From assembly GCA_030220185.1 (NCBI GenBank), contig JASPKZ010007531.1:372001-436000 (forward strand): a stretch of DNA of 64,000 nt, given 5' to 3'. Positions 4,148-64,000 of the stretch are shown one piece after another; the stretch's first letter is position 1, and every line of letters starts with the position of its first letter. This DNA is from Diploptera punctata. Its lineage: Eukaryota > Arthropoda > Insecta > Blattodea > Blaberidae. The notes under the pieces were generated by a model that had not been told where the DNA came from, searched no databases, and was given only the letters and a program-made list of their open reading frames with translations. A program made the translations under genes and the position numbers.

Positions 4148-4447
4148 GTAAAACAAGATAAAGATAGTCATAAGTCTAACTTTTCATTATACTATTCAAT
4201 TGTTTGTGTGTAAAACCAAGATAAAAGACAGTCAGAAGTCTAACTTCTGATTATACTATTCAATTGTATGTGTGTAAAATCAAGATAAAAGACAGTCAGA
4301 AGTGTAACTTCTCATTATACTATTCAATTGTTTGTGTGTGAAACCAAAATAAAAGACAGTCAGAAGTCTAACTTCTCATTATAGATACTATTCAACTGTT
4401 TATGTGTGAAACCAAAATAAAGACACCCAGAAGTATAATTTCTCATT
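4148..4447. repeat. Degenerate right edge of the 63-bp satellite
   Basis: About five diverged monomers, with substitutions such as aagtctaac, ttcaattg and gtgaaaccaaaataaa and a short insertion (tagata) near 4385. Array edges are usually less homogenised than the interior, and this edge shows the expected decay before the sequence becomes unrelated at about 4447. Several edge monomers carry accaag, a variant that inside the array mostly goes with type B. Confidence 0.9.
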
Positions 4448-4575
4448 AAAGCCTAGGCCTACTATGTTGCAATCTTACCTTTTAGTAGGCTACATAAAAG
4501 TCCTAGTAGCCTAATTAGTTACCAAAATTTATATTATGTACTACCAAATCCTTACATGTAGGCCTAATCACGTAT
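4448..4575. other. Spacer between satellite and first LINE
   Basis: Unique A+T-rich sequence with two exact TAGGCCTA octamers and two TAGGCTA/TAGCCTA variants in about 130 bases. No gene is seen. Confidence 0.5.
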
Positions 4576-4970
4576 CTAACTAACTCACTGGCATTAACGA
4601 ATACGTAGGTTCATGGCTGCGCGGACATAAGCTCTCCATACATCCCTATCCTGAGCTAATGTTTTTCAATAATATCCTGTATAATGTAGTTTCCTCAAAT
4701 CATGGTGAATGTTATTCTCCCACCTCTTTATTGACCTACCAACAAGGCGTTTTCCTCCTGGTTTCCCTACAAGGAGTTTCCATGTCCCTTTTTCATTCCC
4801 CATTCGTGTCATGTGTCCTGCCCATCACAATCTATGAGACATAACTGCTAGGCCTATTAGGTATACAACTGGTTTCCCATAAAGATCGTGTTACGCAGTC
4901 TTCTCCATTTGCCTGTCTGTTCATATTCCTTTGGTCCAAACATTTTTCTAAGAACTTTATTCTCAAATAT
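4576..4970 (-). mobile_element. RTE-A LINE 3' end (5' part of a split copy)
   Basis: A minus-strand copy of the commonest LINE in the window. It starts with the reversed tail (ctaactaactcactggca) and the reversed GAACC...GGTTC 3' terminus. It then runs backwards through the C-terminal coding region that elsewhere reads GRPRMRW, RRLRWAGHVARM and FGPKRDEQTGEWRRL. Reading frames are broken. The copy is interrupted at about 4970 by RTE-B and resumes at about 5351. Confidence 0.85.
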
Positions 4971-5350
4971 ATCATCACCACCATCATCATCACTCCAGGA
5001 ATTAGGCAATTGCCCGTTCCGACTTCATAATGCATCAGCCCAACGTCTTCTAGGTCTTCCAACATCACGTCTTCCTCTTGCTTGATAATTTCTTGCTAAC
5101 AATGGATATCTCTCCTTACTCATTCCATCCATGTGATCAATCCATTTCTGTCTGTAGTTCGTGACCTTATCCAATAAAGGCTGTAGGCCTACTTTCAATT
5201 CTTCTCTTATATCCTCATTTCTTATTCTATCAATTCTTGTACATCCTTTTACTTGTCTTAGGAACCTAATCTCCGCCGTCTGTATTCTATCCTTCTGTTT
5301 TTTCACTGGAGCCCAAGTTTCACATCCATACAATATATGTAGCCCTAATA
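4971..5350 (-). mobile_element. RTE-B LINE 3' fragment nested in RTE-A
   Basis: The 3' coding end of a different RTE-like retrotransposon, minus strand, open for about 110 codons. The peptide carries LYGCETWAPVKKQKDRIQ, the segment AEIRFLRQVKGCTRIDRIRN, then VGRPRRRW. This is the post-reverse-transcriptase C-terminal pattern of RTE-like elements. The reversed (ATG)n tail (catcaccaccatcatcatca) marks its 3' end at the left. RTE-A sequence lies on both sides, so RTE-B landed in an existing RTE-A copy. Exact junctions and the target duplication are uncertain. A GGCCTA insertion at 5186-5191 adds two codons relative to RTE-B2. Confidence 0.8.
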
Positions 5351-5715
5351 TATTCTCCTTCCTTAAGAGACACTGTTTCACATCCATACAGGGCCTAATA
5401 TAACTTTGAGAATAACAGTTTTATAGGCGCATATGCCTATTTCTAGCTTAACGTTACTTGAGATAAGTTGCTAGAACAAAGTCCCTCTAATGCCTAACAG
5501 CATGCATTTTGAGAGTTGAACTATTTTTAATTTCTTTGTGCACCTCATTCCTGTATGTAATATTATTGATCCTTGGTAGGACCTGGCCTATTTGAATTCA
5601 GCCATTTCTTCGAAATTTCCATCATTTGTCATTTACTATTCATTTCCACTAGTCTATAGATCCTATAATGTAGCCTATTTCTAAGTGTGATCATAACTTA
5701 GACTATATTAGTTTT
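5351..5715 (-). mobile_element. RTE-A LINE, continuation of split copy
   Basis: Continues the copy at 4576-4970 upstream through the NVKLKIYKTIILPVILYGCETW region and into the reverse transcriptase C-terminal part (reversed EFKYLGT-like segment near 5580). It is heavily diverged. Two TA-bounded micro-insertions are seen against other RTE-A copies: GCCTA at 5673-5677 and a 12-base GGC...GCC insert at 5426-5437. Confidence 0.75.
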
Positions 5716-6600
5716 TTGACAAATCAATTCATATCACTACAGTCTAAATTATCGTTAGTTCATTTATAGCCTAACTTATGAGATGTTGTGCAATTTGAAT
5801 AGCCTTGTAGATTTACTGCAAGTAAAAAATTTCAAGTCTAAAGTAAGAGGTTTTTGTGCTAAATTTGTCGTCACTTTTTCACCAACATTTGAATTGTTCT
5901 GCTAATAATTAGGGCAAGGCTTTTCATGACCTATAAACCACCGAAATATGCAAAAAAAAATGATATTTGTGACCTAAAATTTACAAAAAATATGCACTAT
6001 AACAAAAAAATACCTAATAATATAATAATTATATTAATTAATAATTTCATTTTTAAAATCAAGTAGTAAATAGGCCTAGTTTATGACAATTAACTATTTA
6101 TTTAAGAATAAAATGCAAATGTGAAGCAAACTAAAGTATGGAATTTGATATTGTTGCATGCTTTTTATTTTATTAAAATTATCAATAGCTACCTTCTTGT
6201 CGCGAGGCAATACATAGGCCTATATAGGCCTATTTGCTCAGGTATTTCATATACGTAAGGGAAAAGTCCATACTGTGCATTGAAACGAAATAGGAAAAGA
6301 AAATGGATTTTACAGAAACAAAATTCAGAGAAATTTAACAACTCAAACACTGAAGAAAGAAATCATACGATAAAAGTTCTTTACTTCGTAAAAGAGTGAA
6401 AATATGATGAATATGACCAATAAATTACTATTCTCTGACACATATAAATGTGCCAAATATGCATAGGCCTATATATGACTTAACAAAGTCTTTTAATACA
6501 ATTACTTTTTGTATAAAAATCACTTATGTATATTTAAGAAACATATCACTCTTGTCAAAAAAAATGCAATATGCCTATCAAGAAGATCCTAGCCCTACTA
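5716..6600. other. A+T-rich spacer, no gene seen
   Basis: Holds A-runs around 5945-6010 and TAGGCCTA octamers near 6073, 6217, 6225 and 6466. No repeat family or coding segment is recognised. Confidence 0.5.
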
Positions 6601-7100
6601 ATAATTTTAGTTGCTAAAGAGTATAGTTAAACTAAAAATATATAAAACTATTATTCTACCAGTTATATTATACGTATGCGAAACATGGACTCTTACTTTA
6701 ATGGAGGAAAGGAGATTACGAGTATTTGAGAAAAAAGTACTTAGGAAAATTTTTGGACCAAAGAGAGATGAACAAACAGGTGAATGGAGAAGACTTACAT
6801 AACAATGAACTACATGGTCTTTATAGGAAGCCAGATATAATAAGAACAGTTAAGTCTCGTAGACTACGAGGGCAGGACATGTTGCACGTATGGGGAATGA
6901 AAGGCTTGCATGGAAGCTTCTTGTAGGAAAGCCAGAAGGAAAACGCCCAGTTGGTAGACCAAGAATGAGGTGGGAGAATAACATTAACTATGATTTGAGG
7001 GAAGTAGATTATAGCCTACAGGGAATGATTGGAAAGCATTATCTCAGGATAGGGATGTATGGAGAGCTTGTGTCCGTGCGGCCATGAACCTACGGGTTCG

Positions 7101-7104
<4 letters not shown>
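6601..7104 (+). mobile_element. RTE-A LINE 3' end
   Basis: A 5'-truncated copy starting within the KLKIYKTIILPVILY coding region and ending at the conserved terminus (GAACC 7086-7090, GGTTC 7095-7099). The C-terminal protein is split into three frames, with a break after GEWRRL and another near 6920. The GCCTA insertion at 7014-7018 shifts the frame inside the VDYTGND segment. The usual TAAG tail is missing; (TAA)n of a LINE-T copy starts immediately after the terminus. Confidence 0.88.
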
Positions 7105-7163
<59 letters not shown>

Positions 7164-7440
7164 GCTTTATTTTACCTGGCAGAGTTAAGTCCTTAAGGCC
7201 TTCTCTACCACTCAACCAGGTTTTAAAAAAATACAAAAAAAAATAGTCTTACATCTAAATTACAATATGTTATGAATACAGTACAATTAATATTTAGGCC
7301 CTATAATGTATTTTGTTTTACTCTAAATTTAACGAATTAAATATATAATATGTACAATATATATAAAAAACGATAAAAAGATTAATGACATAATATAAAA
7401 TTAAATAAAAAAATAGAGAAAAATGAATTATTAGACAACA
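7105..7440 (-). mobile_element. LINE-T 3' UTR with (TTA)n tail
   Basis: Starts with (TAA)n at 7105-7162, which is (TTA)n on the minus strand. It then matches in reverse the 3' UTR seen at 30700-30955, including the reversed ccttaaggccttaactctgc block and the attcgttaaat segment. It is the 3' end of a TTA-tailed L2/CR1-like LINE; no coding part can be read. The stretch 7400-7440 also matches 49170-49215. Confidence 0.8.
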
Positions 7441-7949
7441 GTGGTGTCAGTGAGTAAGTAAAGAGTATAGTTAAATAAAATTGTAACTTCGAATGAAATT
7501 GAATAAAGTAACACATGTGTTGGAAGAGGATTTGCATGCAATATTTGTGTTTTGCAACAAGAGACCTTGCAGTGTATTCAGAGCAAAGTAGATAATATTG
7601 TAGAAGTGGGCCTACTGAATGTTAGATGAGGAAACGTGGTATTTGTGTTTCTTGGAAAGAGTTGTGCGTGCTGAGTTAGTCATGAAGGAGACGAGAGCAA
7701 GGATACGTCAAGGACACGCTCCGTGTCAATCACCACATCACGATCCAGGACTTGAATCCTGTCTGGGCGTCTTACATGAAAACCCTACTCCCTCGTGCAT
7801 ATGTTTACCATTCGATTAAATGTATTTCAAATCAGTATATTTACATTTTTGATCCTAGCTTATCTAATGATTCAATTCATCCTGAATTTAATATTGCATT
7901 TATTGATCGAAAAAAGGATATTGGAAGGCCAAATACGAGTTTATTGTTA
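7441..7949. other. Spacer, no gene seen
   Basis: Only short open frames without recognisable motifs, and no repeat assigned. It may contain older LINE-T sequence that I cannot align by eye. Confidence 0.4.
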
Positions 7950-8760
7950 GATAGATCATCGGTTGATTAATGTCTTTGACATCGTCCGATTCCTAATAAC
8001 CAGTTTTGTCGGTCCATCCAGTTTCCTGGTTGTAGATGTTTCTCCTTCATGTATAAACATATTCCCTGACTCCAGGAGGTTTTAGGTCTTCCTCTGCCTC
8101 GTCTTCCCTAAAGTTTCCATTCCAAAACACATTTTGGTATCCGATTTTCTTCTATTCGCTGGGCATGTCCGTACCATCTTGATTGCTGAGTTTTAATATA
8201 ATCTAATGTAGTGTCTTAAATCTTCATTTTCTCCCTTATAAGTGAGTTCCAAATTGTTTCTCTTGTTGAAATTCTTGCTGCCCTTCGTATAAAATCCATT
8301 TCCGTTGCCAAAATATATCTATTTGTTTTTGTTGTTAATGGCGAAAGTTCTGCTCCATAAGTAATGATGCTTTTAACAATTATATGATAGGCCTATATAA
8401 GTTATTCATTATATTCTTATTGGCTACTTAAATTTTTATCCCACAATATTCCATTGAGGCAAGCAATTGCAAATTTTCTTTTATTATTTATATTTCTTAT
8501 TTCCTCTTCATAACTTCCATTTTTATTTACTTTAATTCGTAAATATGTGATCTCACTACAATATTTTATTGTTTCTCCAGTCTCCAAAATTAAATTTTGT
8601 TCTGGTTCACCAATTGATAAATATTTTGTTTTTTTCATGTTCAAAATTATTCCCATTTATTAGGCTATATTCTTCTATTCATTTTCTAGTCATAGGCATA
8701 TATTCTTAATTTTCATAATCTTGTGCAATTAACAATTGATCATCAGAAAAATGTAAGTTA
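7950..8760 (-). mobile_element. RTE-C LINE fragment
   Basis: A minus-strand copy homologous to 27190-27552 and extending further 5'. The C-terminal part reads MDFIRRAARIS-like and RWYGHVQRM-like in broken frames. The open stretch 8656-8417 encodes MKKTKYLSIGEPEQN and GETIKYCSEITYLRIKV, the reverse transcriptase thumb-like region. Near 8725-8750 the catalytic box reads SDDQLLIAQDYENL, with Ser where family members have Ala (FADD). Frameshifts make it inactive. Confidence 0.8.
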
Positions 8761-9317
8761 TATAAAGTTTTATTGTTTGAAATAAGAAATATTTTATTGT
8801 TAAGAATATAAAATATTTAAACTCAGCATTATTTTACTTTGACAACTCAACAAACTAGGTAGATTCCTCAAGTTGACCGCCACCGACGTTTGAACTAAAG
8901 TTGCAGACGCTATCGCCTGAGCCTACTCCTTTGGTACGTTAATACCGTATGATCATTAAAATCTTTATATTTTATAGAGAATAAATTAATTCTTAAGGTA
9001 ATAACATATAGCGATACCTATGGGAATTTTCGCAGGTTTATCAACATATGTTGAACAGGTCTGCATGCGAATAGGGTGATGTGGGTTAAGCAAGAAAATG
9101 GGGTCATACGAAGATAAATGTATCAAAGATAATGATAATAATAAGGATATGGAAGGGAAGTGCACGTTGCCGGTAACAATGATTGATGTTTGTAGTGCAG
9201 GTCCTGTAATTACACCGATCGGTACAGGAACATCCTCCAGGCGGTCCATCACAACAGCACGTCACTTGTCATTCACTTTACACACTGATTTCTCACATTT
9301 TTAAAAAATATTAGACA

Positions 9318-9318
<1 letters not shown>
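8761..9318. other. Spacer, no gene seen
   Basis: Two overlapping open frames on opposite strands between 8986 and 9304 show no motif I recognise and are probably chance. Confidence 0.4.
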
Positions 9319-9374
<56 letters not shown>

Positions 9375-9375
9375 C
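9319..9375. repeat. (TC)n(TA)n microsatellite
   Basis: About 29 bases of CT repeat then TA repeat. It abuts the tail side of the SINE3b copy, and a similar CT/TA tract flanks the SINE3b copy at 22201. Confidence 0.9.
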
Positions 9376-9691
9376 CATAGTAATTCTGCCCGAAGGCAGG
9401 TCCTTTACTGCAATCATAGTAGTTTCATGCTATGCTTGCAGCTTTACTAGGGAATTGAAGGTGTGGTAGCTTCCCGTTGCTTTCCACACCGGTGAAAGAT
9501 GATGATAGTGATGATGATAACGATGTTGATGGCCATATGATTTCGGGGACCGTTTAGTTTTCCTGACATTTGTCTTACAGGTGAGGAAAAACCCCGATAA
9601 AAACCTCACCCAGAAAGAATGCCCCGACCGGGAATCGAACCCGGGTCCGCTCGTGACAAGGCAGCACGCTACCTCGAGACCACACCGGTGG

Positions 9692-9693
<2 letters not shown>
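9376..9693 (-). mobile_element. SINE3b, tRNA-derived
   Basis: A minus-strand SINE. The tRNA-like head at the right end has an A-box-like gaggtagcgtgctgcc and a B box gggttcgattccc. The body with gtgaggtttttatcgggg and gacaaatgtcagg follows, then the b-type tail with a reversed caccggtgtggaaagcaacg and aggcagaattac-like end. The head and body are shared with SINE3a, but the tail is different. It is pol III-type and non-coding. Confidence 0.88.
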
Positions 9694-9733
<40 letters not shown>

Positions 9734-9758
9734 ATAGGCCTATATATAGGCCTATAGG

Positions 9759-9800
<42 letters not shown>
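9694..9800. repeat. (TC)n(TA)n microsatellite broken by TAGGCCTA
   Basis: CT repeat to about 9729, then TA repeat interrupted by two TAGGCCTA and one TAGGCCCTA. Removing each GGCCTA or GGCCCTA would restore a continuous TA tract. Confidence 0.85.
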
Positions 9801-9805
<5 letters not shown>

Positions 9806-9937
9806 TAAATAGCAATACTATAAATAATAAATTCACATAGGCTATGATTTTCGTAAAATAACTTATTTACAAAGGTTTCCCTTACAATTTTGATATTAAA
9901 CAATTACTTTATGAATAATATGTGAACTTACAAGAAT

Positions 9938-10002
9938 GAGTGAAATTAAACCTGTCAAGAAATTTAGATATCTAGGATCAAAGTTAGAAGAAGGGTTATC
10001 AT
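9938..10002 (+). mobile_element. Short RTE-like coding remnant
   Basis: Reads KPVKKFRYLGSKLEEGLS, the conserved F-x-YLG segment that follows the catalytic box in RTE-like reverse transcriptases. It ends where the HP1 element begins. Confidence 0.55.
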
Positions 10003-10245
10003 GAGTAATGCCACGAGTGATTTCCAAATCATCTATAAATTTGGAAATCAGAGAGGCATTTGTTAGGACTATTTAACGAATAAAATTAAGCTGATTACTC
10101 ACAAATCATTATTTAAATATAGTTATTTTAAAATATTTATATAGGCCTATTTAATGTAAACAGCTATGTTTGAAAACAAATGAGAAACGATTGGTATGCT
10201 TCATTTGCTTCTTTTGTTCATCACTGCAACCAGATCATATTATTT
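10003..10245 (+). mobile_element. HP1 hairpin element, truncated
   Basis: Matches the first third of the HP1 copy at 19091-19850. It starts with the imperfect hairpin (tgccacgag...gaggca), here with its inner stem deleted so the loop is short. A GGCCTA insertion at 10144-10149 is absent from the 19091 copy. The rest of the element is missing after about 10245. Confidence 0.8.
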
Positions 10246-10439
10246 AAGCCTATATTTAAATGCTTCCGCTAACTGTCGTTTAGCTCAAATTGACACAGAA
10301 AAGGGGTCAGTAATTATTTTATAGAACAACTGAGCCGCACATTCTACCAGATTTCCTAAACCATGTTAATGTTAATCCTCAGCGGAGTGCAGCAAGCAAC
10401 TGCACCATGCGTATTACCATATATATGATAGGACAAAAA

Positions 10440-10913
10440 GTCAGTCAGTCAGTCACGGGACACTAGCGGGAAAAATAATAACTTTACAAGAAAATGTCTT
10501 CGATACTTTTTTGTTAGTTGTGTACCAATAACGTAGAATCCAAGAGGAAATTTGATTCCGTCAATTATTATGTTGTGTCCTCCATGGTATCTTTACCTTG
10601 TCGTGGTGGAGTGGCTTGCGTGCTTAAATGATCCTGAGAGCTATGCCGGCGGTAGCATTGCTGCCGATAGGGTTACCCATGCCGGACTGGTCGAAGGTGA
10701 TAAGCCAGACGAAAAAAGTACCTTGGGCGAAAGAGTGACGATCTTTCACCGTAAAAATACAACCGTCAAGAAATGCGGACATGGGTTCATCTGGGGTAAA
10801 ATTTTCCAATAGTCCCCCATTCGGTTCTCCGGGCGGGGACTACTTCAGGGAACCCATGCCAAAGGCTCAAACACAGTAATTTTTATACGTTTTCTGTGAC
10901 TGACTGACCATAG
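10440..10913. repeat. Inverted GTCAGTCAGTCAC flanks
   Basis: The segment gtcagtcagtcac at 10440-10460 recurs inverted as gtgactgactgac at 10898-10910, bracketing the U8 unit. The other U8 copy (56394) does not have these flanks, so they may be a separate foldback element or coincidence. Confidence 0.35.
10571..10880 (+). mobile_element. U8 unit, discrete RTE 5'-end-like repeat
   Basis: A G+C-richer unit of about 310 bases starting cctccatggtatctttacc and ending ggctcaaacaca. The minus-strand copy at 56394-56716 begins and ends at the same points. It contains gtcgtggtggagtggcttg and gccgatagggtta blocks that resemble the 5' UTR of RTE-like retrotransposons. An open frame crosses it (DPESYAGGSIAADRV, EGDKPDEKS), which is probably incidental to the shared sequence. 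Whether it is a 5'-only fragment or a non-autonomous element is unresolved. Confidence 0.65.
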
Positions 10914-11867
10914 CTAGCAGTTAACAATTATAGGACACATTTAAGGTATATAGAACATTAGAATGCAATTCATATTATTATATATACGACTAGGGAGGAC
11001 CAAAGTATGGTTTAACAAAAGAGTTTGTAAAATGAAACGAATTAATACGATCAAATCATTAAACAACAAATTGGTAAAATTTTGCTTGTTTATACAGGTT
11101 TGGAATATGACAAGTTCTACCACTAGTATTAGATTAAAATAATACACTTATGGAACATTATCTTATAGAATCAGAAAATTTGATTCTTAAAGATATATAT
11201 TACGCCTGCATCAATTTCAAAATTTTCACCTCGGTATGATATTTTCATGGAATTGCTCTTTAATAACAAGTGAATCAAATTATTTAGAATAAATAAATGA
11301 ATTCTATTTTAATTAAACATACTGGCAGCCGAATTTTATTAGGCAACTCGGCAAAAATGTATTCAGTAATTCACAATTTTATGAAAAAAAAAATGATTTT
11401 GTTCATACACTCGATGAACGTAGTAATCTCGCAGCCGGATCTTGGACTATTAGATGTTAAAGAATCTATAAATAAGAATAAAGTAAAGAAATTAGAGGCT
11501 ATTATTATGCAATCAATTACTAATTTTAAGTGAATGTGGGACAAAACATCATCTCAGTGGCCGTGACACTGATGTGGTAATGAGGGCTTAATTATAACAT
11601 TTTAGAGTTCAATGGACCATACCCACACTCTTTAAAAACAGCTGAAACTCACTACACTAGCGTGACCACATATTTTTGTTTTTTTCGTTTGTAGCACAAA
11701 CTCAGAGTAATTCAAACAAAATATTTATAGGCCTATTGTTTCAAAATTAAGCATAAAATACAACTCATAATATTTCCACGATTACGAAGCGAAGTATCGC
11801 ATTCAACTACACTTTACAGAAATAGCTACAATTTAGGTTAGGTTTTTGATTCTTTAGCGCTCTGGTC
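10886..11867. other. Spacer, no gene recognised
   Basis: A+T-rich. A 78-codon open frame at 11297-11533 is rich in Lys and Ile and has no recognisable domain, so I treat it as chance. Confidence 0.4.
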
Positions 11868-12297
11868 TCAAAATAGAGGAAGGAAAGAAGATTACGAATA
11901 TTTGAAAACAAATTTCTTGGGAAAATGTTTGGACCAAAGGGAGGTGAACAGACAGGTGAATGGAGAAGAGTACATAACAATGAACTACAGGCCTTTATAG
12001 GAAGCAAGATATAATGATAACAGTTAAGTCTCGTAGGCTGCGATGGGCAGGACATGTGGTACGAATGGGGAATGAAAGACGTGCATGGAAGCTTCTTGTA
12101 GGAAAACCTGAAGGAAAACGCCCAGTTGGTAGACCAAGAATGAGGTGGGAGAATAACATTAACTATGATTTGAGGTAAGTAGATTATACAGGGGATGATG
12201 GGAAAACATTGGCTCAGGATAGGGATATATGGAAAGCTTATGTCCGCGCGGCCATGAACCTATGGGTTCGATAGTGCCAGTGAGTTAGTTAGTTAGT
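11868..12297 (+). mobile_element. RTE-A LINE 3' end
   Basis: A 5'-truncated copy from the EERRLRIFENKFL-like region to the terminus (gaacctatgggttcg) and a gtta tail. The reading frame is broken near 11990. A 5'-truncated SINE1 begins directly after the tail. Confidence 0.87.
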
Positions 12298-12534
12298 TAA
12301 CTATGGGACCTGTGCCCACCAAGCATCGTGAGACATTTGGGTAGCTACAATAAGTAGCTCCAGGTTGAGAAAACCAGCTATAACGGCTGGGGGACCCGAC
12401 ATGCTGACCGCATGTCACCGCTACACTGGCAGCGTGATCGTTTACAACTGCGATCAATGTATGTGGATGTGAGGCCAGCAGCCGGATGGTAGGCCAAGGA
12501 CCTTCTAGGTCTGTAGCGCCATGGAGCTTATATT
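12298..12534 (+). mobile_element. SINE1, 5'-truncated
   Basis: Lacks the tRNA head. It starts at tatgggacctgtgcccacc and matches the body and tail of the SINE1 at 14131 to the gtagcgccatggag end. Confidence 0.82.
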
Positions 12535-12564
12535 AAATATACCTTAAAGTAAATATAGCCTAAA

Positions 12565-12672
12565 AGGATAGCCTTTTATATAGCCTATTTTTGCTTAACG
12601 TTTTGTGAGAAAGTTGGGACTTCTAGAAATTTATAGGCCTAAGTCTAGAGTATGCGTTTCCAGAGTTGAGAA
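12565..12672 (-). mobile_element. RTE-A LINE fragment
   Basis: A short minus-strand piece of the RTE-A NSGNACYY to NVKLKIYK region. A GCCTA insertion at 12583-12587 sits at the same RTE-A position as the 12-base insert at 5426. Confidence 0.7.
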
Positions 12673-13289
12673 TATGTCCAAGTAGCTACGTTACCTTTTG
12701 TTTTATATGCATTCTATTCGAAAGTTATTACATCATGTGTATTGGTTACATAAATAACAGGAGTGTCGTTATCTGGGCGTAGTTCAAGATGAAGTGTATC
12801 AAGAACGTATGTTAATGAAGAGAATGACCTTATTGTACAGTTCGCGTGTCTCGTTCCTTTCAGCGTGTAAACACACACATACTAAAGGTTCATACACAGA
12901 GATCTATTAGGCATAATTCCAGCACTCTATTGATTTAAGCATTAACTGCAAAATATTAGACCCGTTATAGTCTAATTAATAATTAGAATTCCGGTGGTGA
13001 ACAATAGATTATGGTTTAATGAAATTGAACGAGACATTGAAAAATATATTACTCAGAATAATAAAAGTTAAAAATTGAATTGTACCTGTTGGTAGGTGCC
13101 GTCGTGTTCAACTTTGTTAAAATATTGTAGGCCTATATGAAATTAACTGGAGCGCTTTCGGAAGTTTCAGATAACTCCAGTTAATTGTATATACAATACT
13201 AGAAGTCCCGGCCACGCGTTGCTGTGACTAAGGTATAGGCGTACGTTAAAAATTTTAATTAAGTTGCTGTCTTTCAGGCTCTGTAATCC
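12673..13289. other. Spacer with a small perfect inverted repeat
   Basis: aattaactggag at 13141-13152 and ctccagttaatt at 13176-13187 form a perfect 12-bp stem with a 23-base loop. No gene is seen. Confidence 0.5.
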
Positions 13290-13345
13290 ATGATAGCACG
13301 CATTTCCAGAATTGAGTCTATGTTTAATTTCCTTGTGGGATAAAA
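13290..13345 (-). mobile_element. RTE-A scrap, minus strand
   Basis: Matches the reversed RTE-A segment gcatttccagaattgag...tttaatttcc. It joins a plus-strand RTE-A piece at about 13346, so the two parts are in opposite orientation. Confidence 0.6.
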
Positions 13346-54835: not shown

Positions 54836-55064
54836 ATCCTTCCCATATTAAAACCTCGCCAATGGCACAGAAAAACTTTTGGGCCATTGAAGCTCAAATG
54901 ACTGTTAGGCCTACTGCATGCTACACTAGACCATAGGTTTATTATTATTACTTAGATTATGAACTATGTAGATTGTTATTGATTATTTTCCATACATGTT
55001 CGACTAGGGGCCTACATCTCATACTGTCAACACGTTTTCTTTCTTCTTCTGTAATATCTATAGT

Positions 55065-55204
55065 CCGCCGCTTAGTCTCCGGCCCTAATGTTTAGGCTGT
55101 AAAGGGAAAAATTCGTCCTCTGCCAATAAGGAAATAGTTGAAGTGAAAGTGGACGTCTGTCACAACCAATCACTGTCCTTGACATCGCTAATAACGTTTG
55201 AAAT
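55065..55204 (+). repeat. R9 repeat, left half
   Basis: Matches 14810-14960 (ctgccaataagg, cacaaccaatcactgtcctt). gtttgaaat at 55196-55204 recurs at 55617-55625. Confidence 0.75.
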
Positions 55205-55616
55205 TGTCTTCTTCTTGTAAGCCCATGTTTCCCTTAACAGAGATTTAGGCGCTCTCCCCTACAGCAAGAATTTGAACTATACTAATTTAGTTACACTTGT
55301 TTTCGTATAGGCCCTATATGTCATTTGAGTGGTCCGGGGTCAGCGTTCCGCCTCATACTGACATGTAGGAAACCAAGGTAGTGCTAGGACGGGAAAATTA
55401 CGTAAATTTTCTTAGAGGCTTTTAATTCAGGCTTAAGGATCTTTTACGAGCCTGAAAATCTTCAGACTCGGGACCCACGGCTTCAAGTCCCTCCCGGAGG
55501 ACTTGCTTCTTGGATTTTTCCATCCTAAAAATCCATCGACCCCGGCCGGGTTTGAACCTGCGACCCTCGGGACTAGAGGCAAGGAGCATAACCACTAGTC
55601 CACCGCGGGCGGTAGG
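55205..55616 (-). mobile_element. SINE4, tRNA-derived, inserted in R9 with TSD
   Basis: A 412-base minus-strand insertion with the nine-base target duplication gtttgaaat. The tRNA-like head at the right has an A box (tggactagtggttatgct) and a B box (ggttcaaaccc). A body shared with 62212-62432 extends to about 55400 (cttttacgagcctgaaaatc). The remaining left 190 bases and the CTT tail are not shared. Confidence 0.82.
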
Positions 55617-55785
55617 GTTTGAAATGGTTGAGAATTGAAATAAGGCGCATTACTGTTAACCTCTTGGCTTCGGTGGTAGGGCCTACATAAAGTGGCCCAT
55701 CCCACTGAATATCCATATCGGCAACTCTGTCGTGAAAACGTCAGAGCCAGAGACTTGTCGGCTGGACTATTATTGACATCGCTCT
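55617..55785 (+). repeat. R9 repeat, right half
   Basis: Resumes R9 (cccactgaatatccatatcg, caactctgtcgtgaaaacgt). A GGGCCTA-type gain may lie near 55678-55686. Confidence 0.72.
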
Positions 55786-56154
55786 CTACTAAATTTACAT
55801 CTATAAACGTTAGTTTTCTTAAACCTAGAAGTTGTTTAGAGGCAAATACCTTAAGTTAGGCCTACGTTAAGTTTCATTTAGTTAAATTTGGTTAGTTTTG
55901 GGCGTTAACAAAGTTAGCCTATGTTATGAAAGACCAACGAAATGAAGATTAGACTAATATAAGTTGGCAATTCTGTTCTGGTCATCATTCACTACTATCT
56001 ATCCAGAAACATAGGGCTTTCATCTCAAATTCTAATTATTTTTCGCTATTTTCGTAGGCCTACTTCGTTTTAGTTAAAATAGGCCTATATACGTTACGAC
56101 ATATCTTACGTACAGGGGCTTATACTAGGCTATATAGCCTATTAAGGCTATATT
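55786..56154. other. Spacer, no gene seen
   Basis: Several TAGGCCTA-type motifs, including taggctatatagccta at 56129-56144. Nothing else recognised. Confidence 0.4.
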
Positions 56155-56312
56155 ACTAACTAAATAACTGGCACTATCTAACCCGTACATTCATGGCCGC
56201 GCGGACATAAGCTCTCCAAACATCCCTATCCTGAGATAATGTTTCCAATCATTCCCTGTATATAATCTACTTCCCTCAAATCATAGTTAATGTCATTCTC
56301 CCACCTCATCCA
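56155..56312 (-). mobile_element. RTE-A LINE 3' terminus
   Basis: Reversed tail, a damaged terminal hairpin (cccgtacattcatgg) and the DYDLREVDYTGND region, truncated at about 56312. Confidence 0.82.
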
Positions 56313-56393
56313 AGGGTGATTTGTTTAACTCCCGCTTTAATACCTCTAGCGCCCCGCTATTGTATAAAGAAAGCCTACTAACGTTCTACGTTT

Positions 56394-56716
56394 CTAGGAA
56401 CATGTCATTGTGTTTGAGCCTTTAGCATGGGTTCCCCTGAAGTAGTCCCCGCCCGGAGAACCGAATGGGAGACAATTTGACATCCGAAAAATTTTACCCC
56501 AGTAAAACCCATGTCCGCATTTCTTGACGGTTGTATTTTTACGGTGAAAGATGGTCACTTTTTCGACCGAGATACTTTTTTCGTCTGGCTTATCACCTTC
56601 GACCAGTCCGGCATAGGCAGGCCTAACCCTATCGGCAGCAATGCTACCGCCGGCATAGCCCTCGGGATCATTTAAGCACCAAGCCACTCCACCACGACAA
56701 GGTAAAGATACCATGG
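56394..56716 (-). mobile_element. U8 unit, second copy
   Basis: The reverse of 10571-10880 with the same start (cctccatggtatctttacc) and end (ggctcaaacaca). It differs by a gain around 56608-56622 that includes ggcctaa. The sequence remains open on the minus strand. Confidence 0.7.
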
Positions 56717-56924
56717 AGGGTAGAGCTATAGTACGCCTAACTTTTTTTTAGTTAGACTTATAGGCGTAGGCCTTGATAACTTTTAGGTAGTATTTCAAAC
56801 AAGAACTTATAAAATTGAAATTAATTAAAAAACAGCAGGTTGGCTATAATTATTTTAATCTTAAAGTGAATAGACTCTTAACCAAAGTCCTATGTCTACA
56901 AATAGGCCTAAAGGTCTAACTTAC

Positions 56925-57221
56925 TCACTGGCACTATCAAACCCGGAGGTTTATGACCGCGCAAACATAAGCTCTCCATACATCCCTATCCTGAGCCAAT
57001 GTTTATCAATCATTCCTTGTATAATCTACTTCCTTCAAATCGTAGTTAATGTTATTCTCCCACCTCATACTTGGTCTACCAACTGGGCGTTTTCCCTCTG
57101 GTTTTCTACAAGAAGCTTGCATGCAAGTCTTTCATTCCCCATTCGTGCCACATGTCCTGCCGATCGCAGTCTACGAGACATAACTGTTCTCATTACATCT
57201 AGCTTCCTATAAAGACCATGT
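56925..57221 (-). mobile_element. RTE-A LINE, first part of split copy
   Basis: Reversed tail, terminal hairpin with a double change that keeps pairing (aaacc/ggttt), then RPRMRWE and RRLRWAGH regions, cut by SINE1 at 57221. Confidence 0.87.
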
Positions 57222-57565
57222 AAGAATTCCTGGCGCGACAGGCCTAGAAGGCCCTTAGCCTACCAGCCGGCTGCTGGCCTCACATCCACATGTGTCAATC
57301 ACAGAGGTAGGCGATCATCAGCCAGTGTAGGGGTGACATGTGCTAAGCATGTCGAGTCCCCCAGCCGTTACAGCTGGTTTTCTCAACCTGGAGCCGCTAC
57401 TTATTGTAGCTACCCAAATGCCTCACGATGCTGGGTGGGCACCGGTCCCATACTGGCCGAAATACCATGAGAAAATCTCTTCCCCCATGGAGACTCGAAC
57501 CAGCGCAAGACCCGTAGCTCTGCGCCAAGGCTTCCTGCCTTAACCACCCGGCTGCGGCGCGGGAC
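57222..57565 (-). mobile_element. SINE1, full length with TSD
   Basis: A 344-base minus-strand insertion in RTE-A. ataaagaccatgt at 57209-57221 is repeated exactly at 57566-57578. The tRNA head is at the right (B box agactcgaaccagc in reverse) and the tail at the left (aattcctggcgcgac). Confidence 0.95.
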
Positions 57566-57607
57566 ATAAAGACCATGTGGTTCACTGTTATGTAGTCTTG
57601 TGCATCC
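57566..57607 (-). mobile_element. RTE-A LINE, second part of split copy
   Basis: Continues to gtggttcactgttatgtagt and ends abruptly at about 57605. Confidence 0.82.
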
Positions 57608-57786
57608 ACAAATAATGATCTGACTTTGGTAATTTCTATAGCAAGCCTAGGCCTAGGCCTAAATCTTAGAGAAGATAATAAAAATAGTCTTAAATGTTCA
57701 TGTTCTGCTGGACTGTAACCAATCTCATTTGAAAAGTGAAAATAAATTAACACCATTTGGTTAGTGGCTTACATTGCTATTTAACA

Positions 57787-58415
57787 TACTTACTTACTTA
57801 CTCACTGGCACTATCGAACCCGTAGGTTCATGGCCGCACGGACATAAGCTCTCCATACATCCCTATCCTGAGCTAATGCTTTCCAATCATTCTCTGTATA
57901 ATCTACTTCCCTCAAATCATAGTTAATGTTATTCTCCCACCTCATTCTTGGTCTACCAACTGGGCGTTTTCCTTCTGGCTTTCCTACAAGAAGCTTCCAT
58001 GCAAGTCTTTCATTTCCCATACGTGCAACATGTCCTGCCTAACGCAGTCTACGAGACTTAACTGTTCTTATTATATCTGGCTTCCTATAAAGACCATGTA
58101 GTTCATTGTTATGTAGTCTTCTCCATTCACCTGTATGTTCATCTCTCTTTGGTCCAAAAATTTTCCTAAGTACTTTATTCTCAAATAGGCCTACTTGTAA
58201 TCTCCTTTCCTCCCTTAAAGTAAGAGTCCATGTTTCGCATCCATATAATATAACTGGTAGAATAATAGTTTTATATATTTTCAGTTTAACGTTTTTTGAA
58301 AGGAGTTGGGACATCAAGAGTCTCTGCAATGCATAATAGCATGCATTTCCAGAATTGAGCCTATGTTTAATTTCTTTGTTCATCTCATTCCTATTTGTGA
58401 TTATTGTTCCTAGGT
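57787..58415 (-). mobile_element. RTE-A LINE, longest clean 3' copy
   Basis: Two minus-strand open frames. The upstream one (58383-58039) reads HRLNSGNACYYALQRLLMSQ, LLSKNVKLKIYKTIILPVIL and YGCETWTLTLREERRLQVG. The downstream one (58020-57811) reads WKLLVGKPEGKRPVGRPRMR and AQDRDVWRAYVRAAMNLRVR. A one- or two-base change near 58030 separates them. GGCCTA at 58188-58193 adds two residues in frame. It ends in (TAAG)n at 57787-57800. Confidence 0.92.
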
Positions 58416-58842
58416 ATATTAAAACTAAATTGAACTGTTAAAGGATTGCGTAGTGATATAAGAATTTCTCATACCAAAGGGCAAAAACTGGCCTACATAT
58501 CGAATAAACAAAGGTGTGAAAGTCACGTGACCCGAGGGCTCTAGTCAAATGTTTCGATCTTCGTGTGAGGTTCAATAACAATGACCTGTACTCTTATCTT
58601 AGCTTTCACCTCGTGTAACGCAATATGGGCCAACATAGGGTCTACTAAGGTTTTGTAGTCTGTTCTCTTTACGCGTTTGCTTCTTTAAAAAGCGTAATGC
58701 TGCCCAGATCTGTAATTGTACTAATTGCGACACCAGACATGAGCTCCTGCACTTGATAATTTTTGCTTTTCATTACTATTGATATAGGCTAATCTGACCA
58801 ACGGATCTGTGCCCCCGTAAAATATACAAACTATAGGTCTAC
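58416..58842. other. Spacer, no gene seen
   Basis: Nothing recognised. Confidence 0.4.
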
Positions 58843-59060
58843 TGCAGCCTCTGATACTCGGATCTTGACGTTTTCACGACAGTGTTGCCGATATGGATAT
58901 TCAGTGGGAGTGGCCGCTTTATGTATGCGGATAGCAGACACACAGTTGACAACATCTCAGCAGTTTCAAACCTTACTAGCGCGCTATAGCTGCGTCAAGA
59001 GCAGTGATTGGTTATGGCAGACATCTACTCCCACACAATCATATCCTTATTGGCAATACA
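58843..59060 (-). repeat. R9 repeat, reversed
   Basis: The reverse of 14850-15085 (actgcagcctctgatactcg, tggatattcagtgggagtgg, tagcgcgctatagctgcgtc). Confidence 0.8.
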
Positions 59061-59297
59061 TACATACATAGTAATTCTGCCCGAGGGCAGGTCCTTCACT
59101 GCAATCATAGCATTTTCATGCTATGCTTGCAGCTTTACTAGGGAATTGTAGGTGCGGTAGCTTCCCGTTGCTTTCCACACCGGTGAAGGATGATGATGAT
59201 GATGATAAGGATGATGATGGTGATGATGGCCATATGATTTCGGGGGCCGTTTGGGCCTTAAAGTTTTCCTGACATTTGTCTTACAGGTGAGGAAAAG
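59061..59297 (-). mobile_element. SINE3b, head missing
   Basis: b-type tail and body are present (reversed tgccctcgggcagaattac; gacatttgtcttacaggtg). It stops at gaggaaaa, so the tRNA head is lost. The tail is (CATA)n. Confidence 0.83.
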
Positions 59298-59304
59298 CAC
59301 AATA

Positions 59305-59610
59305 GGCCTAAAGGAAATTATGCAAGTTGAAAAAAAATATTATAAAAAATAGAACAAATCATTCGAAATGGTATGGACACCTCATAAAAATGGAAGAAGG
59401 AAGAATGCCAAAGAAGATCCTTGATTGGAAAGCTAATGGAAGAAGTGGAAAAGACAGATCCAGACAACGTTTGATAGATGGAGTGAGAATAAGTATGGAA
59501 GCTAGAGATTTGAGGGAAGTAGATGCTCTAGACAGGAACCTCTGGCGACAAATCACTCTGAGCTGAAGGAGAAACACTGTACCATGGACTATTCCTAATA
59601 AAAAAATATA
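59305..59610 (+). mobile_element. RTE-N LINE 3' end
   Basis: Open for 79 codons: KNRTNHSKWYGHLIKMEEGR, PKKILDWKANGRSGKDRSRQ and RISMEARDLREVDALDRNLW, stopping at 59564-59566. The 3' UTR continues to about 59610. It is a distinct RTE-like lineage with no other copy seen here. Confidence 0.8.
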
Positions 59611-60117
59611 TAACTAGAGAAAGAAGCAATTCAGTAAATATTCAATTGCCTACTTCTCTTTAGGGACCAACAAAACAACATCATCCCTCGAAATTTTTCT
59701 GGCTTTTGGTTTGTCTGATATTATGGCCGGCACAAGCATATAGTCCTGACGTTTCTTTCTCCTCCATCAAGTGATTATAATCAAGATAAAGATAGACTTG
59801 CACGCAAGCGCAGTGGGAAAGTGTCAGATCACCCCCCTGAAGATTCTGATGAGGAGTGAAGTTTGGTACCACGCAATGTGCACAAAATACAGCATCGCTC
59901 TCAGGAGGAATTCAGGCTAGCTTCAAAAATGTTTTGAATTTAATTAATTATCTAATAATAGGCTATTAGGTTAAGTAAATCACATCCTTTTTAATCTGTA
60001 GTCCACGCTTCTCTCCATGATTCAGTGTCAAGTCATAGGCCTCCCTACTTTTAACGATTATTTTTGTTACTGCAAATAAAAAAAATTATAAAATACTATT
60101 AATCTGATATAAGCTCT
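59611..60117. other. Spacer, no gene recognised
   Basis: A 63-codon minus-strand frame at 59872-59681 has no recognised motif. Confidence 0.4.
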
Positions 60118-60772
60118 TCTTCTTCTTCTTCTTCTTCTTCTTCTTCACTTCTTGGTTTAGTCATTAGTTGCCTGTTCCGTCTTCACTAATAGATCTAAGA
60201 CCATCTCTTCCGAGGACGTCCGACATCTCTTCTCCCTCTCAGAAAATAATGTAAGATTTTATTTGGTGATCTGCTTTCTTCCATTCTTTCTACATGTCCT
60301 TTCCACTGAATCTTGTTGTTAAATATATTTTCTTTTATGGAATAGATCTGCAGTTCTTCACGGATATCCTCGTTTCTTATCAGTGCATCCTTTCACTCTT
60401 CTTACAAATTTCATCTCTGCTACTTGGATTTTACTTTCTTGTTTCGTAGTGATAATCCAAGATTCACTCCCATACAAAACGACAGAGACTGCCATTGTTT
60501 TATAAAATGTTAATTTTGTTTGTTTATGGGCTTTATTATTCAATGTTCTATTTATTGTGGCACAAATAGCTTGAAACTGATGAGTTTTATGTTCAATATC
60601 TTTATGATATCCATAGCTGATGTCACATCCTAAATATTTAAAGTGGGATACTTGTTCAATAATTTCGTCTCCAATTATTTTTTTTTGCACGCAGAGTGTT
60701 TCTTCCACAAGATGTCATTACCTTTGTTGTACTTACTGAAATTTTAAAATTATAATCACTAAGTTACATATT
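60118..60772 (-). mobile_element. RTE-O LINE, 3' part of split copy
   Basis: (CTT)n at 60118-60146 is the reversed tail. The minus strand reads GDEIIEQVSHFKYLGCDISY, VVLYGSESWIITTKQESKIQ and VAEMKFVRRVKG, then frameshifts. aagttacatatt at 60761-60772 recurs at 61191-61202 around the RTE-A insertion. Confidence 0.9.
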
Positions 60773-61190
60773 ACTTTAAGGGAGGAAAGGAGATTACAAG
60801 TATTTGAGAATAAAGTTCTTAGGAAAATTTTTGGACCAAAGAGAGATGAACATACAGGTGAATGGAGAAGACTATATAACAATGAACTACATGGTCTTTA
60901 TAGGAAGTCAGATATAATAAGAACAGTTAAGTCTCATAGACTGCGATGGGCAGGACATGTTGCGCGTATGGGGAATGAAAGACGTGCATGGAAACTTCTT
61001 GTAGGAAAGCCAGAGGGAAAATAGCCCAGTTGGTAGACCAAGAATGAGGTGGGAGAACAACATTAACTATGATTTGAGGGAAGTAGATTATGCAGGGAAT
61101 GATTGGAAATCATTAGCTCATGATAGGGATGTATGGAGAGCTTATGTCCACGCGGCCATGAACCTACGGGTTTGATAGTGCCAGTGAGTG
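60773..61190 (+). mobile_element. RTE-A LINE 3' end inserted in RTE-O, with TSD
   Basis: 418 bases, 5'-truncated in the TLREERRL region, ending at ccagtgagtg after the terminal hairpin (G-U-type change, gggttTg). The 12-base aagttacatatt flanks it exactly. One base gain in GKxPVG and a few substitutions are the only damage, so this is a young copy. Confidence 0.95.
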
Positions 61191-61478
61191 AAGTTACATA
61201 TTGCATTTAGTTTGTAAGCAGCCAAAACTAACAAATCTTCATCATGGTGTAGTAAGACTGAATCATCGGCGAAAATTAAGTTATTAATACTTGAGTTATT
61301 GTTCAATCTAAGGCCTTTGTCTGTTATAATTTTCCATTGTTTCATAATGTCGTCAATATATAGTCCTATATTAAAAAGTGTGGGCGATAGATTAGGCTAC
61401 ACCCTTGTCTACTCCATGATTTCTTAAAATCTCTTCTCTGACCTTTTTCCATCAGTTTTTATCACTACTTTAGTTTCT
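61191..61478 (-). mobile_element. RTE-O LINE, RT core part
   Basis: The minus strand reads NLIFADDSVLLHHDEDLLVL (intact FADD box) and ITDKGLRLNNNSSINN, with a broken LSPTLFNIGLYIDDIMKQW upstream. The open frame 61345-61142 runs on into the antisense of RTE-A. Confidence 0.87.
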
Positions 61479-61479
61479 T

Positions 61480-61772
61480 CATATATCAGGATACCAAAGG
61501 ACCGATAAAAAGAAAAAAGAAGATATAAGAACAGAACTTTATATGTTTAATCTCTGTGAAGGAATAAAATAGGCCTACTATTGAAATGCTTACCTTCAGC
61601 ACGTATTACGAATGAATGAACAGCGCATACCAAGAAGAATGTATAATTATAAACCAAAAGGGAGAAGATTGTTGGGAAGACCATTGAAGAGATGGAAGGA
61701 CCAATTCGACCTATAATGAGATCGGAAGAGGCCATTGGGCTTAATCTTTGTTGTTGATGATAATGATTTTCA
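61480..61772 (+). mobile_element. RTE-I LINE 3' end
   Basis: DKKKKEDIRTELYMFNLCEG-like coding, then RMNEQRIPRRMYNYKPKGRR, GRPLKRWKDQFDL and a stop. The 3' UTR ggaagaggccattgggctta and a TGATGA tail follow. GGCCTA lies at 61573-61578. Confidence 0.82.
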
Positions 61773-61985
61773 CTCAAGACCGCGCTGACATAGCTCTCCA
61801 CACACCCCTATCCTGAGCTAATGTTTACGATCATCACCTGTATAATCTAGTTCCCTCAAATCATGATTATTAATATTCTTCCACTTCATTATTGGTCTAC
61901 CAACTGCGCGTTTTCCTTCTTGTTTAATTTTCATGCCCCTCTTTCAATGCCCATTCATGCGACCTATCCTATTTTACCTACATTT
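61773..61985 (-). mobile_element. RTE-A LINE fragment
   Basis: Reversed AYVRAAM region back to ARMGNER, diverged. The terminal hairpin is lost at the RTE-I junction. Confidence 0.78.
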
Positions 61986-62211
61986 TTATACATAATATAT
62001 TATTTATAGGCTAATGCTATGGCTATTACCATTTATCTATCTATCTATCCATAATGGCGTGTCACATTGTTGAGCCATTGCATCTCGTTTGTAGGGAGTT
62101 TTTATTTTTAGTTACTTTATTTGCTGGTAGATGTCCTGGACGTCATGCGGTCAACACACCGACCCAATGAGACATCTATTAGACAACTAAGATGTTACTT
62201 GAACTTTGATG

Positions 62212-62432
62212 TCGATAAATTTTGCTTAGAAGCCTCTTTATTCAGGTTTTAGTATCTTTTACGAGTCTGAAAATCTTCAAACTGGGGACTCACAGCTTAG
62301 TTTCCCTACCGGAGGACTTAGATTTTTCCGTCCTAAAAAAGTCCATCGACCGCGGCCAGGTTTGAACCCGCGACTCTCGAAACCAGAGGCAAAGAGCATA
62401 GCCAATAGTCCACCGCGGCTAGGTTGTCTATT
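62212..62432 (-). mobile_element. SINE4, tRNA-derived
   Basis: The reversed head at the right (B box aggtttgaaccc in reverse, A box ccaatagtcca in reverse) and a body shared with 55400-55616 (cttttacgagtctgaaaatc). The left end diverges before 62212. Confidence 0.78.
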
Positions 62433-62974
62433 TTTATACTGATTGTGATTTTATATTTCGGACTGTTGAAATTCTAAGCTAGATTTAGAGAATTTTATTT
62501 TAGAAATGAATAGAAATGCCGCATTGCGAAATGTTTGGAGTACGAAAATGTTTGCCAAAGAGCCTGTAGTTACTTTCGTGTTGAATAATAATTGGTGTTG
62601 AGTGTTGGAAATGAAAACGTTAACAGAACTGACATGTTCTGTCCTCTTTACTTCATAATTACACTCGTGTAGTGGGAACTTTGCTCTGCTAAACTAACCT
62701 ACGTGTAATTAGCAATTTACAAAATCACACAACTCTCAAACTTACTTGAATCTATGAATCAAACTTTGTGCCACTCATTTTAATAGTGTTAACCAACTTT
62801 AACTACATACATCTCTAAATAATTTTTACGTAACTCCAAATTCCAAGACGCGACAAATCACCCAAAAAAAAATTAAAAATTAAGACAGTAACCTAACCCA
62901 TTAAATTAATAAGATTGTTAAACTGTATAGGCCTAGGATCTTGTCATCCCATAAAATCATTTATGCTTTTCTAC
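62433..62974. other. Spacer, no gene seen
   Basis: Nothing recognised. Confidence 0.4.
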
Positions 62975-63720
62975 TACTTCTTCTTCTTCTTCTTCCTTTC
63001 CAGGATTAGGTCAATGCGACCTGTTTCGGTCTCAAGTCCATCGTTTCCTTGGCCGTCCCAAAGATCTTTTTCCATGTGGTTTGTAGGCGTTGATCTTTTT
63101 TGGTAGGCTAATCTAGTATTGTCCATTCTGTCTAAATGTTCTTTCCATTGGTATTTGTGCTCGTCAAGTTTATCGAGCATTGAAAATATCTCCAGTTAAT
63201 TTCTTATTGATTCATTGTGTAATCTATCCATGCGTGTACATCCTTTTACGGATCTTAAAAATTTCATTTCAGTGGCTTGAATGTGAGAGATATCTTTTTT
63301 TGTAAGTACCCAAGATTCAGAACCATATAAAAGAACAGGAACAGCCATAATTTTATAAAACCTGAGCTGAGTTTCTCTTCGAGTCTTTTGGAGGGTTCTT
63401 CTTATGGTGCCACACATCATTTGATATCGGTTTAATTTATTGTGCATATCCCAATCATAGCTATATGTTATATCTGAACCAAGCTAGTTAAAGTGTGCTA
63501 TCTGTTCTATTAATTCATTACTGATTACTATTTTTGCTCTAACTGGCACTTTACCCTGAAAAGCCATAATTTTAGTTTTTGAAGTTGAGACTTTGAGATT
63601 ATAATAGAGTCCTAATTGATTCAACATGTAAATGGCTCTTTGTAAATCATCCTCTGACTTCTGTATAATTATGAGATCGTCTGCATACATTAAAATATTC
63701 ATATAGGCCCTACATTTCCT
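62975..63720 (-). mobile_element. RTE-E LINE, RT core to 3' end
   Basis: (CTT)n at 62981-62996 is the reversed tail. Three minus-strand frames, 5' to 3', read: MNILMYADDLIIIQKSEDDL and YYNLKVSTSKTKIMAFQGKV; RRTLQKTRRETQLRFYKIMA, LLYGSESWVLTKKDISHIQA and KFLRSVKGCTRMDRLHNES; then LDKLDEHKYQWKEHLDRMDN. The catalytic YADD is intact, and two frameshifts separate the frames. Confidence 0.9.
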
Positions 63721-63821
63721 TATTAATTTGTTTTCCTATGGGAATTGATTTTTTCATTTTATCTTTTTTACTTAATAATTAAATTCAATTAGGCCTGTAT
63801 TAAAACAAGACAGTATTACTA

Positions 63822-64000
63822 CAAGGCCCTTGGTCAACTATATCAGCTGCTAGCCTGATATCCACGTATGTTAATCACAGAGATGGGCGGTTATCCAGCC
63901 AGTGTAGGGGGACACAGGGCCTACAGTTAGCAAGTCAGTTTCCCTAGTCGTTTTAGCTGGCTTTCCCAGCCTGGAATCGGTACATAGGCCTATGTTGGTG
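63822..64000 (-). mobile_element. SINE1, diverged, runs off window
   Basis: Reversed SINE1 body (gttaatcacagagatgggcg, gtttccctagtcgttttagc), diverged. The head would lie beyond the right edge. Confidence 0.75.

Follow-up and report, generated by a model that had tools for sequence, protein, structure and literature searches.

What process has set the same few letters between two copies of TA at scores of sites in 64 kb of a cockroach genome? The Diploptera punctata DNA analyzed here, called the window below, comprises 64,000 bases of contig JASPKZ010007531.1 (positions 372,001 to 436,000; G000:C6997:372001-436000, the contig being C6997 in our numbering) from a 3.12 Gb assembly of 10,165 contigs. 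Beyond a satellite at its start, the window is crowded with TA-core-TA words whose core is GGCC, GGC, GCC, GGCCC, or GGGCC. At alignable sites these words are short insertions gained at a TA, and we infer that they are probably the end-joining scars of a TA-specific cut-and-paste transposon that would have 5'-GGC...GCC-3' ends and hop locally.

Word counts for the window were made on its non-satellite part (59,552 bases) and compared with a dinucleotide (order-1) model; order-2 and order-3 models were also used. TAGGCCTA occurred 74 times against 0.89 expected (order-1), 1.78 (order-2), or 6.89 (order-3, a figure inflated by the motif's own presence), and the highest count among 200 simulated order-1 sequences was 5. 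TAGGCTA (28 copies) and TAGCCTA (22) were in excess over order-1 expectations of 4.2 and 4.0, as were TAGGCCCTA (9) and TAGGGCCTA (5) over 0.2 each. Scrambled cores were near chance (TACCGGTA 1, TAGCGCTA 1, TACGCGTA 0), the two-base cores GG (10), CC (14), and GC (12) all lay under their order-1 expectations, and no other core of G and C alone was comparably raised, the small excesses being GCCC (4, with 0.85 expected), CGCC (3) and GGCG (2; 0.4 expected each), and GCGCGC (2). The full fill-in core GGCGCC was absent from the window and from 78.7 kb of scar-rich ("hot") DNA, in which GGCC was found 108 times, GGC 36, GCC 29, GGCCC 11, and GGGCC 10, with GG (14), CC (20), and GC (19) not above chance. 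In the cold set, too, GGCC was above background. The original prediction, made from the letters of the window, had reported 11 exact copies of TAGGCCTA in 4441-9840, all of which are present, and had listed 24 insertion sites, every one of which carries the letters given with TA at its left; the comparison it proposed with a composition null and scrambled cores came out in favor of all five core words. Scars lie both in repeats (64 sites, 2.0/kb) and in sequence that matches no repeat (74 sites, 2.6/kb), and flanks vary from site to site across the 74 TAGGCCTA contexts. The double scar TAGGCCTAGGCCTA, found 989 times genome-wide, corresponds to a second insertion at the TA created by the first.

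To establish polarity, 139 sites (the 138 exact words and one 12-base insertion) were compared with other copies in the window and with 0.27 Mb of fetched genome pieces, a copy being scored as empty if it came within one base of a lone TA and at least 6 of 10 flanking bases were alike. An alignment was obtained for 51 sites, the remaining 88 not being judgeable; at 37 of the 51 at least one empty copy was found, and at 30 empty copies were in the majority. Only two alignable sites (14434 and 57256) hold shared, probably ancestral words. Where polarity can be judged, the cores are gains rather than losses, a point on which the original prediction could have failed. In one LINE (long interspersed nuclear element) family, 21 fragments of which were aligned, single copies hold TA-GGCC-TA, TA-GCC-TA, TA-GGC-TA, or the 12-base GGC...GCC insertion at positions where the others have one TA (Table 1). 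Reading this alignment by eye, we also found mutated former scars (e.g., TAGACTA, TAGACCTA, and TAAGCCTA) and two positions each struck independently in two copies; the scar at 29372..29379 occupies the same LINE position as the 12-base insertion in the copy at 5364-5568, one TA having been reused independently. Among the 24 insertions originally proposed, 18 have an empty copy by script, several of these on one or two aligned copies, and two more (41403 and 5426) were supported by eye on the script output (23 of 30 and 8 of 11 copies without the core); 12583 and 48292 have no alignable copy, and 25248 and 49135 lie in microsatellites that gave no clean alignment.

Table 1. Scars and related features of the window; "empty" copies lack the core.
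Feature	Position	Strand	Remarks
63-bp satellite	1..4448	+	444 TA sites, 0 micro-insertions, ~10 predicted from the local rate
Hot patch, 138 exact TA-core-TA words	4449..64000		74 GGCC, 28 GGC, 22 GCC, 9 GGCCC, 5 GGGCC; ~10 by chance; 2.3% of 5897 TA sites
TA-GGCGCATATGCC-TA, 12-base insertion with GGC and GCC ends and 6-base filler	5424..5439		8/11 aligned copies read TATAT
TAGCCTA, single-end version	7012..7018		33/38 aligned copies empty
TAGGCCTA in LINE copy	18431..18438		26/28 aligned copies empty; flanking substitution
TAGGCCTA in LINE copy	18667..18674		31/36 aligned copies empty, mostly TG, 4 TA
LINE-family copy, alignment seed	28303..28948	+	21 fragments aligned
TAGGCCTA in LINE copy	28456..28463		13/18 aligned copies empty
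TAGGCCTA	29372..29379		14/16 aligned copies empty
TAGGCTA, single-end version	41401..41407		23/30 aligned copies read TACA, without the core
TAGGCCTAGGCCTA double insertion	48964..48977 (also 57648-57661)		Second insertion into the TA of the first scar
TAGGGCCTA, 5-base core	52010..52018		8/10 aligned copies empty
TAGGCCTA in LINE copy	58186..58193		18/21 aligned copies empty, 13 exactly TA

The sites share a palindromic target preference, A-N-R-TA-Y-N-T, whatever the core. When the hot set was divided into three core-length classes (GGCC, 108 sites; GGC/GCC, 65; GGCCC/GGGCC, 21), each showed a symmetric context with A at position -3 and A or G at -1, and the GGCC context persisted in the 99 sites without TA-microsatellite neighbors; the core classes therefore look like products of one process. 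This context fits the target consensus sequences of Tc1, CAYATATRTG (passages of PMC9635669), and Sleeping Beauty, ANNTANNT (passages of PMC2756404), to both of which it is close.

The scars are of fairly recent origin. Words that differ from TAGGCCTA by one mismatch occur 49 times, where order 1 predicts 20.7 and order 2 (summed) ~30, which corresponds to a decay of ~3-4% per base; by rough arithmetic on this decay and 2.3 scars/kb, the window gained one scar per 15-35 point substitutions. The satellite is free of scars, as if array turnover had erased them or the array were not a target. Its 63-base unit (window 1-4490) also occurs inside a repeat in one of the fetched genome stretches, which carry L numbers below (L123:1180-1580), where it is bounded by TA-GGATTTTTATGTA...TACATAAAAATCC-TA; the satellite may derive from a TA-flanked element resembling a miniature inverted-repeat transposable element. 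A 15-base tandem array, (GTAGGCTATGTCACA)n, at L150:570-790 (C6997 ~440,570-440,790) has TAGGCTA in most of its units and looks like a minisatellite grown by amplification of a single scar.

The load had been proposed to extend through the genome. TAGGCCTA is indeed common, with 317,365 copies in the assembly, but the window is a hot patch rather than a typical sample, with about 12 times the genome mean density. The reversed control of TAGGCCTA occurs 12,303 times and is a low yardstick because it contains CG; on the order-1 expectation in random pieces (2.04 per 200 kb, or by arithmetic ~32,000 genome-wide) the observed count is ~10-fold higher. For TAGGCTA (190,876) and TAGCCTA (191,113) the excess is moderate against an order-1 background of ~156,000 each, likewise calculated from random pieces (reversed controls, 100,903 and 100,020); the equal numbers of the two are no test, because they are reverse complements of each other, and the reversed control is symmetric too. 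Per 10 kb, TAGGCCTA occurs 12.4 times in the window, 13 times at C6997:350-360 kb, and 23 times at C6997:440-450 kb (two of these belong to the arms of a single palindrome), compared with 0-3 at each of four positions sampled within C6997:1-310 kb and a mean of 1.05 in 20 random 10-kb pieces from other contigs.

Genome-wide, two copies of TAGGCCTA lie 10-40 bases from each other in 8,298 cases, versus 1,000 for even scatter (reversed control, 23). Contig C2 holds 30 such pairs, mostly in a few stretches; 11 of them fall within 100 kb, a concentration not attained in any of 3,000 random draws. Contig C3 is about as long and holds 2. Hot domains lie around 1.03-1.10 and 1.97-2.00 Mb on C2 and around 350-450 kb on C6997. 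Inside the window, the variance of TAGGCCTA counts in 4-kb bins is 3.2 times their mean, and 10 copies have a neighbor within 30 bases versus 2.7 expected. The pair clustering and the regional densities thus describe scar domains of tens of kb to ~100 kb with finer patches inside. A stretch of ~17 kb within the hot window (30600-47900) has few TAGGCCTA and is perhaps younger inserted DNA.

The age of the repeat hosts was not supported as the reason for the density of the window: the LINE family carries 10 scars in 24 copies (8,151 bases) there and none in 24 copies (7,548 bases) from random pieces, a comparison that rests on 10 scars. The same family has one scar in four copies in the cold part of C6997 and one in three copies in the hot flanks. 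Its divergence is 0.099 in the window and 0.136 in the random pieces, figures that favor the window and are not fairly comparable, as the queries were taken from it. Nor was contamination supported as an explanation, since window positions 5716-6625 recur on dozens of other contigs at ~76-82% identity and the LINE family is present in the random pieces; no haplotig (second genomic copy) of 5716-6625 was found among 50 matches.

We propose that each scar marks one excision. The transposon would insert at TA and duplicate it, its ends would most likely read 5'-GGC...GCC-3', and its transposase would leave 3-base 3' overhangs on the flanking DNA, in other words GGC and GGC on opposite strands. 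Annealing of the full overhangs would give one central mismatch, to be repaired to GGC or GCC (TAGGCTA/TAGCCTA); annealing by the self-complementary GC alone, followed by filling, would give GGCC (TAGGCCTA); one-base additions would give GGCCC or GGGCC; and unannealed overhangs joined with filler would give GGC-filler-GCC, as at 5424. An element moving mainly over short distances without gaining copies would produce dense local scar fields with few resident copies. The overhang logic, which the original prediction had set out together with insertion at a duplicated TA and a Tc1/mariner-like footprint, is consistent with the excess of GGC, GCC, and GGCC, with the missing excess of GG, CC, and GC, with the absence of GGCGCC, and with the common target preference; the GGC...GCC element that it also called for was not found in 0.34-0.35 Mb. 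Tc1/mariner transposases make their cuts a few bases in from the 5' ends and so leave 3' overhangs, the nonhomologous end joining of which yields footprints (passages of PMC8151067, PMC7827188, and PMC7913693).

Several observations speak against this proposal. Foremost is the missing source: a search of 0.34-0.35 Mb of the 3.12 Gb, ~80 kb of it hot DNA, turned up no element bounded by TA-GGC...GCC-TA and bearing terminal inverted repeats, and none of the four DDE_3 loci examined has GGC ends. The 5-base cores require an added base or unequal ends. Some side cores show slightly elevated counts in the hot set (GACC/GGTC 12, GGCA/TGCC 13, GGCG/CGCC 7, GCCC 4), perhaps as decayed or minor products, and in the cold set the single-end cores are weakly above background (30 versus ~20-23). 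The base at -1 differs as well: at 28 TAGGCCTA sites in the cold pieces L125-L148, G has a frequency of 0.34 and A of 0.36, versus 0.20 and 0.54 in the hot set, which perhaps points to a further subfamily of the element or to an earlier phase. Finally, local hopping by Sleeping Beauty spans 5-15 Mb (passages of PMC7827188), a much wider range than the ~100-kb domains seen here.

The search for TA-flanked elements with GGC...GCC termini in the window and the fetched pieces yielded palindromes, repeats, and chance pairs of scar words. Of 10 TA-GGC-ended candidates, 5 strong ones (in L150, three nested in L134, and in L137) and one in L123 proved to be palindromes or a satellite-related repeat, the symmetry running on beyond the TA in the L150, L134:2023, and L137 candidates, and 4 were weak. 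Among 109 TA-flanked inverted-repeat candidates, five have GGC at their start; all five open with the scar word itself, and 15-17 of their 20 bases match. Matching ends were found in 27 of 190 candidate insertions, none of the 27 with GGC ends, and the recurrent TAGGC words that were inspected are internal to repeats with conserved left flanks. Genes for DDE_3 transposases are common (17,112 first-look candidates, 150 scored); two of the four loci examined share ends CAACCTTAG..., and two are without ends by our test. At least 120 stretches of viral contigs hold paired TAGGCCTA, those inspected being tandem repeats and unrelated contigs, and no relative of the LINE protein was found among viral contigs. 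An RTE-type open reading frame had 536 hits at the protein level, and among the 120 of these that were listed Trichonephila clavipes was the one species named. A Tc1-like element of ~1.9 kb with perfect TA-CAACCTTAGACAAA... ends is present in L152 and L153 (C380 and C8349), with an apparent empty counterpart in L140. Near-perfect inverted repeats with a small or absent spacer lie at L150 ~9090-9630, L134:1880-2404, and L137:8828-8885, and long palindromes may be common in this genome.

Scars of the same kind could also come from an element with GGCC...GGCC ends and 4-base self-complementary overhangs, GGCC being the clean product and the other cores one-base trims or additions. Of these cores, GGCC has the highest count in the window and the hot set and, as noted, exceeds background even in the cold set, and core lengths center on 4. 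Cores one base shorter make up ~30% of the hot-set excess, yet GG, CC, and GC are not in excess, an observation at odds with the random trimming of 4-base GGCC ends, and the 12-base insertion reads GGC-filler-GCC; we consider 4-base overhangs unlikely.

A transposon might not be needed if breaks at TA were repaired by fixed addition of GGCC, e.g., by a telomerase-like activity adding GG to both ends. The insect telomere repeat is TTAGG, and TAGG/CCTA resembles two such repeats placed head to head; the failure to find an element in the DNA examined would also be explained. One-sided addition, however, would leave GG-only scars, which show no excess (TAGGTA 10 and TACCTA 14 versus 16-20 expected), so that telomere-like addition of GG and CC was rejected as the main cause; the single products are instead GGC and GCC, and the target preference is like that of TA-specific transposases. 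We regard terminal addition as very unlikely.

Programmed or very frequent somatic excision, in which TA-bounded germline elements are cut out of the sequenced tissue and the assembly shows their scars alone, would reconcile hundreds of thousands of TAGGCCTA with the lack of a resident copy in the DNA examined. The decayed scars (49 one-mismatch words, above the expectation of either model) suggest instead that scars have aged in the germline, and we know of no somatic or programmed excision in insects that leaves scars; this explanation is highly improbable. A last alternative takes TAGGCCTA to be an ancient word, maintained by selection or carried along as repeats spread, rather than an insertion. 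The two shared sites, the 88 sites that could not be aligned, and the 15-base tandem array with TAGGCTA might suggest it, but it is scarcely credible: empty copies exist for 37 of the 51 sites with an alignment, many with nothing but TA, and flanks change from site to site among the 74 contexts.

Returning to the excision of a transposon with GGC...GCC ends, we tentatively suggest, as a possibility that we hold with less than even confidence, that the source is a transposon present singly or at low copy number that hops locally without amplifying (or that has been removed from the tissue sequenced), the scars of which form a leading class of short insertions in whole chromosomal domains while the element itself is nearly invisible by copy number. 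At one copy per several hundred kb it would escape the 0.35 Mb examined, and by arithmetic ~300,000 scars could result if many low-copy sources together fixed 0.03 hops per generation for ten million generations. If this is true, a highly active transposon can escape surveys of copy number, and excision rather than insertion can be its main mutagenic effect. Excision footprints are usually studied singly, in excision assays; the scars here could act as a fossil track of a transposon's past sites, from which target preference, repair outcomes, and hop distance would be readable from sequence alone. With the main scar word present 317,365 times in a single genome, the scale is unusual: no description of a comparable footprint load was found in the titles, abstract openings, and passages of the open-access literature, and a passage of one cockroach R2 study has the TAGGCCTA string as part of a polymerase chain reaction primer. 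The novelty lies in how large the load is, in its arrangement in domains, and in the failure to find the element; excision scars of this kind are already known.

Among known systems, PIF/Harbinger elements are alike in their GC-rich ends, which start with GGC or GGCC (GGCC in mPing), and differ in their 3-base TWA duplication and mostly clean excision; here, clean empty sites have TA once and filled sites have it twice. The P element and Ac/Ds, which likewise transpose locally, make 8-base target duplications instead of one of TA, and no 8-base duplication of the hAT/P type was seen in the scar alignments. P-element insertions are ~50-fold more frequent within 100 kb of the donor, a concentration like the domains described here (passages of PMC7827188). 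piggyBac shares cut-and-paste movement and a fixed AT target but uses TTAA and leaves no footprint (passages of PMC8151067), neither of which matches the scars. The closest likeness is to Tc1/mariner (Tc1, Tc3, Mos1, Sleeping Beauty, Minos, and ZB), which share TA duplication, 2-4 end bases between two TA, a palindromic AT-rich target, and a tendency to local hopping. The scars have the TA target with its duplication, as the empty copies at alignable sites attest, and the palindromic AT-rich context. GGC is not known to us as the end bases of any member. The Sleeping Beauty footprint is CAG (passages of PMC8151067), and footprints in the superfamily measure 2-4 bases (passages of PMC7913693), a range that holds the dominant 3- and 4-base cores, with 5-base cores also present. 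The scars further differ in that GGCC would arise via offset annealing, in their far larger number, in the lack of an element in the DNA examined, and in domains narrower than the range of Sleeping Beauty. Membership of the superfamily is putative, and the process by which these scars arose appears, by analogy, to work like Tc1/mariner excision.

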